A stretch of DNA of 42,892 nucleotides, taken from contig JAFYXL010000032.1 in assembly GCA_017546165.1 (NCBI GenBank), positions 1 to 42,892 on the forward strand, read 5' to 3'. Every line of letters starts with the position of its first letter. The stretch's first letter is position 1. Position numbers and translations under genes: made by a program. The notes under the pieces were generated by a model, which saw only the letters and a list, made by a program, of their open reading frames with translations, had not been told where the DNA came from and did not search any database. This document shows positions 37,229 through 41,329 of the stretch, one piece after another. Source of the stretch: Clostridia bacterium. GTDB taxonomy: Bacteria > Bacillota > Clostridia > Monoglobales > Monoglobaceae.

Positions 37229-38248
37229 ATGGAGATATTAAAGAAGCTTGCAGACAACAGCGGTATTTCGGGATATGAGAATGAATTCGCCAAATCACTT
37301 CAAAAGATGCTTGAAAGTTACTGCAGCCAAGTGGAGATAAACAAAACAGGCAGCGTTGTTGCAAATTTTAGAAATTACGATGATAATAAAAAAACCATTC
37401 TTCTTGAGGCACATCTTGATCGCATAGGTCTTGTGGTTTCTGAAATATTGGAGAATGGATTTTTAAAATTTAAAGCTCTTGGCGGAGTAGATGACAGAAC
37501 ACTTCCTGCATCAGAGATTTATGTTTTGGGCAAGGAGAGTATTTTTGGCGTAATTGGTGCACTTCCCCCACACCTTAAAAGCGGTAGTTCGGATGACGGG
37601 TTTGTGAAAATTCAGGATATGATGATTGACACCGGATTTTCGAAAGAAGAACTGAAAGACAAAATTTCTGTAGGGGATCCTGTGTTGCTTAAGTGTGAGT
37701 TTTGTGAACTTTTGGGAAGCCGGGTTTCTTCTGCTGCACTTGACAATCGTGCAGGTATAGCTGCTATATTGTGTGCACTTGATATGCTAAAAACGGAGGA
37801 CCTTAAATATAATATCAAGATAGCTTTTACTGTTGGTGAGGAGCTTGGCCTTTTGGGGGCAAGAACCATCGATTGTGAGGATGTTGACCTTGCTATTGTT
37901 GTGGATGTGACCCACGGCAAAACGCCTGATGCCAAACCTGAGGGGACATTTGTTCTTGGCTCAGGTGCCATAATCTGTCGCGGACCCAACCTTGACTTTG
38001 GCATTACAAAAAAAGTGATTGAAACTGCAGAAAAACAAGGCATTTTACATGACATTGAGGTGTCGGCAGGGAACACAGGCACAAATGCTTGGGTAATACA
38101 GACATTGGAACAAGGTATCAGGTGCGTTTTGCTGTCAATTCCGTTGCGATATATGCACACAGCGGTTGAGACTATTGATACTGATGATGTAAAAAGCGTG
38201 GCAAAACTGATCGCCGAATGTGTTAAGGGAGGTGACCTTCTTGCTTAA
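37229..38248 (+). CDS. M42-family metallo-aminopeptidase, paralogue 1
   Basis: 339 residues. All metal and catalytic positions are present: H62/D64 (AHLDRIG), D172 (LDNRAG), E204/E205 (GEELGLLGA), D226 and H310 (RYMH). M42 enzymes form hollow tetrahedral dodecamers (TET) that trim peptides. The glycine loop is GNTGTNAW rather than the usual GGTDAG-like form, so this copy is divergent but should be active. First gene of the operon, with AGAGGT before the ATG. It overlaps the next gene by eight bases. Confidence 0.9.
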   Translation: MEILKKLADNSGISGYENEFAKSLQKMLESYCSQVEINKTGSVVANFRNYDDNKKTILLEAHLDRIGLVVSEILENGFLKFKALGGVDDRTLPASEIYVLGKESIFGVIGALPPHLKSGSSDDGFVKIQDMMIDTGFSKEELKDKISVGDPVLLKCEFCELLGSRVSSAALDNRAGIAAILCALDMLKTEDLKYNIKIAFTVGEELGLLGARTIDCEDVDLAIVVDVTHGKTPDAKPEGTFVLGSGAIICRGPNLDFGITKKVIETAEKQGILHDIEVSAGNTGTNAWVIQTLEQGIRCVLLSIPLRYMHTAVETIDTDDVKSVAKLIAECVKGGDLLA

Positions 38249-39260
38249 AAAACTAACCGAGAGCTTTGGGGTATCGGGATATGAGATGCCTGTGGCTGAT
38301 ATTATATATGAGGAAGTAAAAAAATTTTGCACTGATATTAAGTTTGACAATATGGGCAATTTGAAGGTGTTTAAAAGGTCAAAGACCGAGCTTCCCCCAA
38401 AAGTGTTACTTTCCGCACATATGGACGAGGTTGGGTTGATTATTACCGATGTGACAGAAGAAGGTTATTTCAAATTTGCTTCAGTAGGGGGCATTGATCC
38501 CAAGGTCCTGATCGCACAGCGAGTGAATGTTAACGGACTAAAGGGCGTTATTTCTACCAAAGCTGTGCACCTTACTACGGCGGAAGAACGAAAACAAAAT
38601 CTGTCCGAGGACAAGCTTTATATTGATATTGGCGCAAAAGATAAAAACGAGGCACAAAAAGTAGCAAAGCCCGGGGATTATTGCGTATTTGACAGCAAGT
38701 ACACAGAGTTTGGAAATCAGATAAAAGCAAAGGCACTTGATGACCGTATAGGCTGTGCTATTATGATTGAAATACTCAAAAAGGATTGGCCGGTTGACCT
38801 TTACTGCAACTTTACCGTTCAGGAAGAAGTGGGACTCCGCGGTGCAAGGGTTGCAAGTCGCGGAATAAATCCGGACTATGCAGTTGTTATTGAAGGAACT
38901 ACCTGCAATGATTTGCCGGGAGTTGAGGCGAATCTGAGAGTTACCAAAATCGGTGCAGGACCGGCTATTTCAATTTTAGATTCTGCAAGCAAAGGCAACG
39001 AAGAACTTATAGCTCTGCTTGAAAAGTCTGCAACAAGGCACAATATCCCTTACCAATTCAAAGCATCAACTGCCGGGGGAAACGACGCAGGGACAATTTG
39101 TATCACAGACGGCGGAATTAAAACCGCATCTTTGTCGGTGCCATGCAGATATATACATTCGCCTGTATGTGTAATGAATAAATCAGACTTTGAAAATTGC
39201 AGAAGATTGATTGAAGTATTTTTGGAAGATATGGGAAAGGATGGCAAAATCAATGATTAG
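38241..39260 (+). CDS. M42-family metallo-aminopeptidase, paralogue 2 (canonical)
   Basis: 339 residues from a TTG start at 38241 with GGGAGGTG six bases upstream; this start aligns the N-terminus (LKKLTESFGVSGYE) with that of paralogue 1 (LKKLADNSGISGYE). Canonical motifs: H60/D62 (AHMDEVG), D167 (ALDDRIG), E195/E196 (QEEVGLRGA), E218, GGNDAG and H306 (CRYIHSP). Expected active. Overlaps both neighbours by eight bases (38241-38248 and 39253-39260), which implies coupled translation and fixed ratios. Confidence 0.92.
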   Translation: MLKKLTESFGVSGYEMPVADIIYEEVKKFCTDIKFDNMGNLKVFKRSKTELPPKVLLSAHMDEVGLIITDVTEEGYFKFASVGGIDPKVLIAQRVNVNGLKGVISTKAVHLTTAEERKQNLSEDKLYIDIGAKDKNEAQKVAKPGDYCVFDSKYTEFGNQIKAKALDDRIGCAIMIEILKKDWPVDLYCNFTVQEEVGLRGARVASRGINPDYAVVIEGTTCNDLPGVEANLRVTKIGAGPAISILDSASKGNEELIALLEKSATRHNIPYQFKASTAGGNDAGTICITDGGIKTASLSVPCRYIHSPVCVMNKSDFENCRRLIEVFLEDMGKDGKIND

Positions 39261-40146
39261 TGAAATTTATAGCGTGTTTTCACCCTCAGGAAGAGAAGAG
39301 AAAATGCGTGAGTATATAGCAGATAAAATCAGCGGAATTTTTGATAAGGTTGAAAGCGATAATTTTGGTAATCTGGTGGCAAGATCAGGGAACGGTGATT
39401 TTTGTATCGAATGCAGTATGGACAGCTGTGGTATTATGATTGTGCATATTGAGGACGGCAAGGCATACTTTGCCGGAGTTGGAGGTATAAATGCAGAATA
39501 TTTAATAGGTAAAAAGATTTTATTCTGTGATAACAGCATAGGGATTGTCAGATATGACGGCAAAACCCCAAACGAGGCAAAAGTATCAGATCTTTATCTT
39601 GAATGTGATTCAAGCAATTTGAAAATTGGTGATTTTGGAGTGGTAAAGTCTGGTTATTGCGAGACAGGTGACAAAATGTTTGCCAATGGTCTGGGGAGCA
39701 AAATAGGACTTGCTGCTGTTCTCGAAACTTTGACAAAGTTTGAAAAAATAGATAACTTGTGTGTATTATTCTCTTCGCAAAAACGATTGGGCGCAAGGGG
39801 AATACAGGCATTTTTGGGAGCAAATGAGTTTGATAAGATTATAACTGTTGAAGGTGTAGCGGATAAAAGTATTAAAGCGTGTGCCTTGGTAGTTGCAGAC
39901 CGGAATGGTGTTTGCAATACAGACTTCAAAGATGAATTAGAAAAAGTAATAGACAACATAGCAGTTACAGACGATGATTTATGTATGGGCAATATTACCG
40001 CATCGGGCAAAGGTGCAAAATGTGCAGCACTAGGGATACCTGTTTCTCACAAGGACAAAAATTTTGAATGTGTAAAAAAGACAGACTTTTTCAGCGGAGC
40101 GGATTATTTGAAAGAGGTAATTGAAAATTTACAAAACAAAAGATAA
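39253..40146 (+). CDS. M42-like protein lacking catalytic residues (pseudo-peptidase), paralogue 3
   Basis: 297 residues from ATG 39253. It aligns to the other two along its length (PSGREEKMREY, AGVGGINAEYLIG, KANGLGSKIGLAAVLE-like core, TVEG), but key positions differ: His of AHMD is S55, bridging Asp of LDDR is G148, and the Glu pair of QEEVG is K177-R178. Only E200 and perhaps a C-terminal His remain. The frame is intact and the gene is coupled to paralogue 2, so it is not a decaying pseudogene. I infer a non-catalytic subunit of a mixed M42 shell or a peptide-binding regulator. ATG 39241 is an alternative start but has no spacing to the RBS. Confidence 0.85.
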   Translation: MISEIYSVFSPSGREEKMREYIADKISGIFDKVESDNFGNLVARSGNGDFCIECSMDSCGIMIVHIEDGKAYFAGVGGINAEYLIGKKILFCDNSIGIVRYDGKTPNEAKVSDLYLECDSSNLKIGDFGVVKSGYCETGDKMFANGLGSKIGLAAVLETLTKFEKIDNLCVLFSSQKRLGARGIQAFLGANEFDKIITVEGVADKSIKACALVVADRNGVCNTDFKDELEKVIDNIAVTDDDLCMGNITASGKGAKCAALGIPVSHKDKNFECVKKTDFFSGADYLKEVIENLQNKR

Positions 40147-40593: not shown

Positions 40594-40908
40594 ATGAAAA
40601 AAGAATGTGTTTTGTATGATCGTGAATGTATGAACTGTGGTGAATGTAATATATGCGACCTGGACCCCAAAAAAGTCTGCGACAACTGTGGCATATGCCT
40701 TGAAATGGATGATGATTACAAGATTATCGATGTTGATTTGACCCTTGAAGAAGCTGACGGGCCTGAACTTTTAAGTTACGAAGAAACGTTCCCCGAAAAA
40801 GCTTTCATTGGAGAAAAGCCTTGGGACGAGGACGACGATTTTGATGATGACTTTTATGAAGACGAGGAATTTGATGACTATGACGAAGAAGATTCTTTGG
40901 ATTTTTAA
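40594..40908 (+). CDS. Cys-cluster protein with acidic tail, unknown function
   Basis: 104 residues. Eight Cys in the first 35 residues: C5, C12-xx-C15-xx-C18-xx-C21 and C29-xx-C32-xx-C35, a pattern that could hold zinc or an Fe-S cluster. From about residue 76 nearly all residues are Asp or Glu with aromatic residues between. No known family recognised. GAGGAGC lies before the ATG, 11 bases after the ACT gene; the 3' end overlaps the rhodanese gene by 29 bases in another frame. Confidence 0.75.
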   Translation: MKKECVLYDRECMNCGECNICDLDPKKVCDNCGICLEMDDDYKIIDVDLTLEEADGPELLSYEETFPEKAFIGEKPWDEDDDFDDDFYEDEEFDDYDEEDSLDF

Positions 40909-41329
40909 AGTTTTACTTTGCATACTGCTCACAGCTTGCGGAAACGATAGCGGTACAGGAATTATCGGCGGTGCAGACGGACCGACGGCAATATTAGTTT
41001 CCGAAAAAGGAGAAAAAGCAATGTATGAACAAATCACGGCAGAGGATGCCAAAAAGATAATGGATTCAGACGAGAAATATATCATACTCGACGTAAGAGA
41101 ACAGGATGAATATGATAGTGGTCATATATCTGGAGCAATCCTGATTCCATATACCGAAATTGAGAATAAAGCAGAAGAAATGCTACCGGATAAGGATAAT
41201 CTTATTCTTGTATATTGCAGGTCAGGCAGACGAAGCAAAATTGCAGCCGAGACTCTCACCAAACTCGGTTATACCAATATAAAAGAGTTCGGAGGTATTA
41301 TCGACTGGCCGTATGAGGTGGAGAAATGA
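40880..41329 (+). CDS. Rhodanese-domain lipoprotein with GGADGPT motif
   Basis: 149 residues from ATG 40880. Lipoprotein signal with LTAC (17-20), then GIIGGADGPTAILV (27-40), then one rhodanese domain (about 48-149) with active-site C113 in YCRSGRRSK, a six-residue loop typical of sulfurtransferases, and DVREQDEY. So a sulfur carrier is probably tethered to the outer face of the membrane. The motif is shared with the lipoprotein at 2370-3332. The start lies inside the preceding gene; GAGGA is 11 bases upstream. ATG 40874 is an alternative start. A GGADGPT hit may cause misnaming as decarboxylase beta subunit. Confidence 0.85.
   Translation: MTKKILWIFKVLLCILLTACGNDSGTGIIGGADGPTAILVSEKGEKAMYEQITAEDAKKIMDSDEKYIILDVREQDEYDSGHISGAILIPYTEIENKAEEMLPDKDNLILVYCRSGRRSKIAAETLTKLGYTNIKEFGGIIDWPYEVEK

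Follow-up and report, generated by a model that had tools for sequence, protein, structure and literature searches.

An apparently dead M42 paralogue kept under selection in a three-gene peptidase operon of Clostridia

Three M42 genes and the active site of gene C

The window, a stretch of 42,892 nucleotides from a Clostridia bacterium of the family Monoglobaceae (GenBank assembly GCA_017546165.1, contig JAFYXL010000032.1), carries three successive M42 peptidase paralogues, referred to as A, B and C, on the + strand, as are all features described below. Genes A (P0003, 37229..38248) and B (P0002, 38241..39260) encode live M42 peptidases, while gene C (P0001, 39253..40146, 297 amino acids) encodes a pseudo-M42 protein lacking the metal-binding catalytic site. 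Neighbouring genes overlap by 8 bp at 38241..38248, where B begins with TTG, and at 39253..39260, where C begins with ATG. The original prediction had described three consecutive paralogues with exact 8-base overlaps, the first two of which are live; this arrangement was found at both junctions, and A and B retain every ligand in the alignment. No other M42 gene was found in the genome of the window (1.34 Mb assembly, 88% complete).

The Pfam M42 domain (PF05343, curated cut-off 23.2 bits) is recognised in A (244.9 bits), B (287.1 bits) and, weakly, C (41.2 bits). Protein A has all metal ligands, the catalytic Glu and the loop motif PPH; protein B has a loop His (His110) and Glu218 in place of a usual Asp. 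Both its sequence, by PF05343, and its predicted fold place C within the M42 family (MEROPS M42) by descent. The M42 fold of C is well predicted, and a model of Bacillus subtilis YtoP-YsdC (PDB 9a5r) is among its fold matches.

Residues of C were assigned by alignment with PhTET2 and among A, B and C. In PhTET2, two metals are bound by His68, Asp182, Glu213, Asp235 and His323, next to the base Glu212 (PMC8993905), and E212 is described as the general base (PMC3511314). Four of the five ligands are replaced in C: the first metal His (H68) by Ser55 (39415..39417), the bridging Asp (D182) by Gly148 (39694..39696), the metal Glu by Arg178 and the second metal His (H323) by Asp268 (40054..40056). 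Of the ligand set, only Glu200 (39850..39852), at the D235 site and still acidic, is kept. The catalytic base is also missing, as Lys177-Arg178 (39781..39786) occupies the place of E212-E213. The alignments thus bear out Ser55, Gly148 and Lys177-Arg178 as originally assigned, and add two changes that had been missed, Asp268 and Cys54 (39412..39414), the latter replacing the Ala that precedes the first His. Asp57 (39421..39423), which belongs to the HxD motif and is not a ligand, is retained. His266, two residues before Asp268, was considered as a substitute for the second metal His and rejected, being unconserved among orthologues.

Conservation of the inactive gene and selection on it

The same kind of active-site loss was found in C, downstream of A and B, in 9/9 fetched genomes of the genus, the window included. 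Junctions in these and in the survey loci were derived from script-predicted gene starts: the 8-bp A/B overlap is common to all nine genomes, and the B/C overlap measures 8 bp in five and 1 bp in four. Named records of the genus, which is uncultured, are of gut origin (buffalo, goat, sheep and deer). The window's family is the one that includes Monoglobus, and named Monoglobus records belong to, or cluster with, its rows.

Fifteen dead C sequences were used as protein queries; scoring was limited to the 7993 candidates with the most words in common, and 68 proteins were obtained. All 52 full-length C orthologues besides P0001 (P0004-P0055) are dead; two of them match fetched genes of a different genus, g3, exactly. 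P0056, a fragment of 162 residues, shows the same replacements wherever it is readable; P0057-P0069 are live enzymes of the M42 family, and P0070 is a fragment of such an enzyme. PF05343 is carried by 54/54 proteins of the set formed by P0001 and P0004-P0056.

The replacements are highly constrained in the 52 orthologues. The catalytic position is occupied by Lys (50), Arg (1) or His (1), and the position that follows by Arg (48), Gly (3) or Asn (1). Gly (41) or Ser (11) replaces the first metal His, Asp57 is retained in 51 and changed to Asn in one, and residue 200 is Asp in 40 and Glu in 7. The orthologue comparison also covers the positions of Gly148 and Asp268. Cys54 is present in 52/52, in contrast to Ala in 205/208 rows of live A, B or C; in the alignment of dead C proteins, D36, G39, F91 and G126 are invariant as well. 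A Cys of this type was also noted in dead C proteins of two other families (L071, L072). Since the losses recur in all nine genus genomes and in all 52 database orthologues, they are not due to chance.

Ratios of nonsynonymous to synonymous change (dN/dS) were obtained from NG86 (Nei-Gojobori) counts after dropping the first 15 aligned codons. They are 0.092, 0.207 and 0.282 for dead C (three pairs with dS < 0.7) and 0.085-0.106 for the dead B genes described below (four pairs with dS < 0.25), and range from 0.06 to 0.13 for the live genes of the dead-gene loci pairs. At deeper divergence, where dS is near saturation, dead-gene ratios of 0.09-0.24 are less reliable. The C frame is open in 9/9 genus loci, the single TAG counted in one genome (G002) being the end of a 306-residue frame past which the match extends by two codons. 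Two checks proposed earlier consequently favour a maintained gene: C homologues display purifying selection and neither frameshifts nor random decay, and the three-gene order recurs with the substitutions conserved. That C is catalytically dead and under selection is, as far as sequence can tell, well supported. A plasmid origin was rejected, as a tblastn search of a plasmid collection with P0001 matched 14 records, all from a single genus and all with less than 80% query coverage.

Losses in B and C across Clostridia

The recurrent, gene-specific loss of active sites across the class is the real find. A joint quick tree was built from 265 M42 proteins, 64 identical and three short rows (< 200 residues) having been dropped from 332. 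Clades A and B have supports of 100 and 99, respectively, and C comprises the rest (91). All motif-complete A rows (92/92) are live. Among 89 B rows, 57 show no loss, one shows a single loss and 31 show two or more; among 77 C rows, 54 show no loss and 23 have lost four or more residues.

A second survey compared the B protein with class genomes that are at least 80% complete, 80 of 128 of which matched, including that of the window. The other 79 provided 63 newly fetched loci; 10 of these genomes had been fetched earlier, and six without listed places were left out. The 63 loci feature A-B-C (52), B-C at a contig start (3), A-B only (2), a lone C-like gene (5) or a lone B-like gene (1). The A genes are exact in 52 of 54, one carrying a Glu-to-Asp change and one being cut by the contig end. 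With two or more lost residues defining a dead gene, 3 of the 58 judged B genes are dead, as are 8 of the 59 judged C genes, a set that includes the five lone C-like genes, all live; L184, with a gap at the bridging Asp and Lys at the catalytic place, was left unjudged. Predicted starts overlap the preceding gene at 71/90 A/B and 50/71 B/C junctions; an additional B/C value is an artefact.

States from the whole sample were placed on a quick tree containing 142 A genes. B is dead in 34/140 and C in 26/121, with minimum numbers of changes of 4 and 6, respectively; L149, among these four changes in B, has lost a single residue and hence counts as live. A careful tree of 92 A rows requires at least three changes in B and four in C. 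A single ancestral loss was therefore rejected on the A-gene trees, as more than one change is needed for either gene. A single family, f4, contains both live (L064, L067) and dead (L068) C genes, and this speaks for separate losses. From these trees, the loss in C seems to have arisen several separate times across the class. All states are seen among these genes: all live, B dead, C dead and both dead. In one locus, L045, B and C are both dead and A is still live. In the sample, dead B is about as common as dead C, and the operon occurs across Clostridia, a wider range than the original prediction held. Cultured strains include Agathobaculum desmolans (L087) and A. butyriciproducens (L108), in which all genes are live, and Ructibacterium gallinarum DSM 107454 (L092), which has a dead B.

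Dead rows share some residues. The Asp57 equivalent is retained in 33/33 dead B and 19/23 dead C tree rows, and Arg or Lys occupies the catalytic position in 23/33 and 15/23, respectively. Cys is found at the Cys54 position in 17/23 dead C and 6/33 dead B rows. The chamber loop stays in dead B; absence of the loop His was considered as a mark of dead C and set aside as uninformative, as live C has the His in 2/57. The PPH motif is not universal in A, occurring in 58/92 rows.

A second kind of dead subunit was observed, namely a B protein with His changed to Asn and the catalytic Glu to Arg, the other ligands being kept; it is flanked by live A and live C in L119, L128, L136, L139, L140, L143, L153 and their kin. 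Some third genes that follow a dead B are barely M42 (L092:8016-8924, 24.4 bits; L121:7816-8793, 20.3 bits; L133:7971-8858, no Pfam match). These near-unrecognisable genes are perhaps the far end of the drift seen in dead subunits. The most extreme ones, which fall below the Pfam M42 cut-off (L121, and L133 and L172 without a match), were assigned to C on the basis of profile score and position.

In the live B gene of the window, Glu218 (38892-38894) lies at the PhTET2 D235 ligand position. This position is Glu in 58/59 live B rows and Asp in 92/92 A and 56/56 readable live C rows, and the Glu of B, which may mark a different substrate preference, is shared by TM1049 of Thermotoga (2fvg). Among three solved M42 structures, the best match of A is 1vho (160.7 bits; 2fvg, 122.5; TmPep1050, 104), that of B is 2fvg (231 bits; TmPep1050, 223; 1vho, 148) and that of the C profile is TmPep1050 (137.5 bits versus 96 and 74). 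We take 1vho to be TM1048 of Thermotoga maritima, in which case the trio would correspond to three consecutive genes there. The three-gene set may be older than Clostridia, and C may be the counterpart of the well-studied TmPep1050.

Directly downstream of C lies a gene for an ACT-domain-pair protein (PF19571, 40160..40582), which is probably on the same transcript and is not claimed as part of a particle. ACT domains often bind amino acids. The gene is present in the fetched loci of 8/9 genus genomes, the exception being L036, a 4.4-kb contig; it was also noted in the C loci of g3 (L043, L050), where C lies apart from A-B. It is followed by a small, Cys-rich and very acidic open reading frame without a Pfam match (40594-40908), relatives of which occur in 26 other fetched loci, some sharing genomes. 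Further downstream, a likely lipoprotein (40883-41329) features a rhodanese domain (68.9 bits) after a GIIGGADGPTAI stretch, which matches the beta subunit of Na+-pumping decarboxylases below the cut-off (21.5 of 31.6 bits).

A candidate mixed particle and its alternatives

We consider it likely, with a probability of roughly 0.55, that C is a non-catalytic subunit that co-assembles with the products of A and B into one mixed peptidase particle. A structural or regulatory subunit and a peptide sensor had both been proposed originally; the structural role fits the wider pattern better, and the sensor less well, because the operon is shared and losses are repeated in B and C and absent from A. 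A is never freed from catalysis, while its partners are repeatedly freed yet intact, as mixed assembly predicts. Independent enzymes are disfavoured because they give no reason for special protection of A, and useless genes because purifying selection acts on the dead ones. Genes A, B and C are encoded together in 52/63 survey loci, which supports a mixed TET particle and is insufficient alone.

In such a particle, each position taken by C would lack a cutting site and carry a short chamber loop; active sites would be less dense, and the range of peptides arriving at those of A and B would be biased. The Lys-Arg pair at the former metal-binding places may keep C assembly-ready without metal, positive side chains standing in for the metal ions and holding the assembled shape. 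This is suggested by the frequency of Lys and Arg in dead B and C and by the retention of the Asp57 equivalent. A caution on this proposal is that Glu to Lys is also an easy single mutation.

Mixing of M42 paralogues has precedents. PhTET2 and PhTET3 dimers build heterododecamers in a defined arrangement (PMC4220976), and B. subtilis YtoP and YsdC, two Firmicute M42 paralogues, are in contact in vivo, as they were crosslinked in cells (PMC10090944). PhTET2-PhTET3, however, joins two active subunits, and the part of PMC10090944 available to us describes no inactive member. Applying either case to this operon would be a step further. C also differs from the TET aminopeptidases (PhTET1/2/3, TmPep1050, CelM) in having neither a metal site nor a catalytic Glu.

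Several points weigh against a mixed particle. Both the number of separate losses and the mixing of subunits are inferred, the hetero-assembly of A, B and C from their genes and sequences. Part of the sample was drawn by patterns containing the active-site residues of A, which favours live A genes; 37 A genes from early loci, all live, and the 54 from the second survey are free of this bias. The joint quick tree groups all dead C, and all dead B, with one change each, which suggests fewer losses, and in a careful 103-row tree the dead C genes of other families form a poorly supported ladder. We read the joined dead rows as long-branch attraction, because the likelihood is 15.9 higher when the live and dead B genes of the family are held together (approximately unbiased test, p 0.72). 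On the path between the window and G005, change amounts to 1.18 in C versus 0.79 in A and 0.58 in B. In g3, C is on a separate contig from A-B (L043, L050 versus L053, L051), and the arrangement can therefore break. The assembly of TET (M42) particles is metal-dependent (PMC4220976), a difficulty for a subunit without a metal site. Judging from their entries, the PDB holds structures of the TmPep1050 mutants H60A and H307A beside a dimeric form, and a metal-less subunit may thus stop at dimers. Finally, the invariant pocket Cys54 may leave room for new chemistry.

Of the alternatives, the least unlikely is that C acts outside the particle as an independent sensor or chaperone binding peptides or amino acids, with the Lys-Arg pair holding a ligand in the emptied pocket. 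The pocket changes are indeed non-random (Lys in 50/52 and Arg in 48/52 orthologues), and in g3 the C gene, apart from A-B, shares a fetched stretch with the ACT-domain-pair and acidic genes (L043, L050). However, B also loses its sites next to a live A, usually in the same operon, the chamber loop is retained in dead B, and a sensor role does not predict the sole protection of A. We give a smaller chance to C being a heterodimer or capping-dimer partner of A or B that hinders dodecamers, providing dose control instead of a regular subunit. Assembly is metal-dependent with dimers as building blocks (PMC4220976), the CelM dodecamer is approximately 45 times more active than the dimer (291.7 versus 6.4; PMC3511314), and neither metal His is present in C; yet the coupled genes suggest that C is supplied in nearly equal amounts, and the enzyme would then be held in check at all times.

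Slightly less probable again is an enzyme with new chemistry based on Cys54, perhaps with Asp57, the acidic residue at 200 or the Lys-Arg pair. The Cys is invariant in the orthologues, replaces a nearly universal Ala of live rows and is found in most dead C rows (17/23), and Asp57 (51/52) and an acidic residue at 200 (47/52) are kept. In contrast, there is no conserved His for a classical Cys-His pair, His266 being unconserved, the remaining invariant dead C columns are limited to D36, G39, F91 and G126, and few dead B rows (6/33) have the Cys. That C is a decaying gene caught before its first frameshift is very improbable: change in C on the window-G005 path is 1.5 to 2 times that in A and B, but dN/dS values of 0.09-0.28, open frames in 9/9 genomes, near-constant replacements in 52 orthologues and the well-predicted fold led us to reject decay in the main.

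The mixed particle that we favour resembles other self-compartmentalised proteases. In the eukaryotic proteasome, non-catalytic paralogous subunits stand beside active ones. The same holds for ClpP/ClpR (PMC6508832). Both differ from the M42 genes in fold and chemistry, and the mixed assembly established in them is conjectured here; the pattern expected of a ClpR-like subunit is nevertheless found, as A is live in 92/92 tree rows and exact in 52/54 survey loci, and dN/dS is well below 1 in dead B and C. M16 peptidases, such as mitochondrial processing peptidase and bacterial M16B, also pair an active with an inactive paralogue. Both are named in a review (PMC11266112). They have the M16 fold and are two-subunit enzymes instead of hollow particles. 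CspC of Clostridioides difficile belongs to the subtilase family and acts in spore germination. It is a clostridial pseudoprotease described as a sensor (PMC6636752), a likeness that supports the sensor alternative and not the mixed particle.

Among the matches listed in open-licence PubMed Central, none describes an M42 pseudo-subunit or treats the trio as a complex, and a review of inactive metallopeptidases published in 2024 does not mention M42 in its main text. According to PMC3511314, MEROPS outlines homologues of M42 that are not peptidases, a remark that the paper ties to CelM relatives annotated as cellulases.

A bolder and tentative proposal is that Clostridia run an A-B-C machine with A as the obligate cutter, B and C having turned time and again into architecture, a prokaryotic metallopeptidase counterpart of ClpP/ClpR, and that in the window's lineage the Lys-Arg pair replaces two metal ions and locks an assembly-ready state. 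If the mixed particle is real, a common and little-studied operon of seemingly three redundant aminopeptidases would be one machine with divided labour. A subunit assembling without metal would show what metals do beyond catalysis in TET assembly, and the clostridial genes would offer a natural series in which to ask why inactive subunits persist in self-compartmentalised enzymes.
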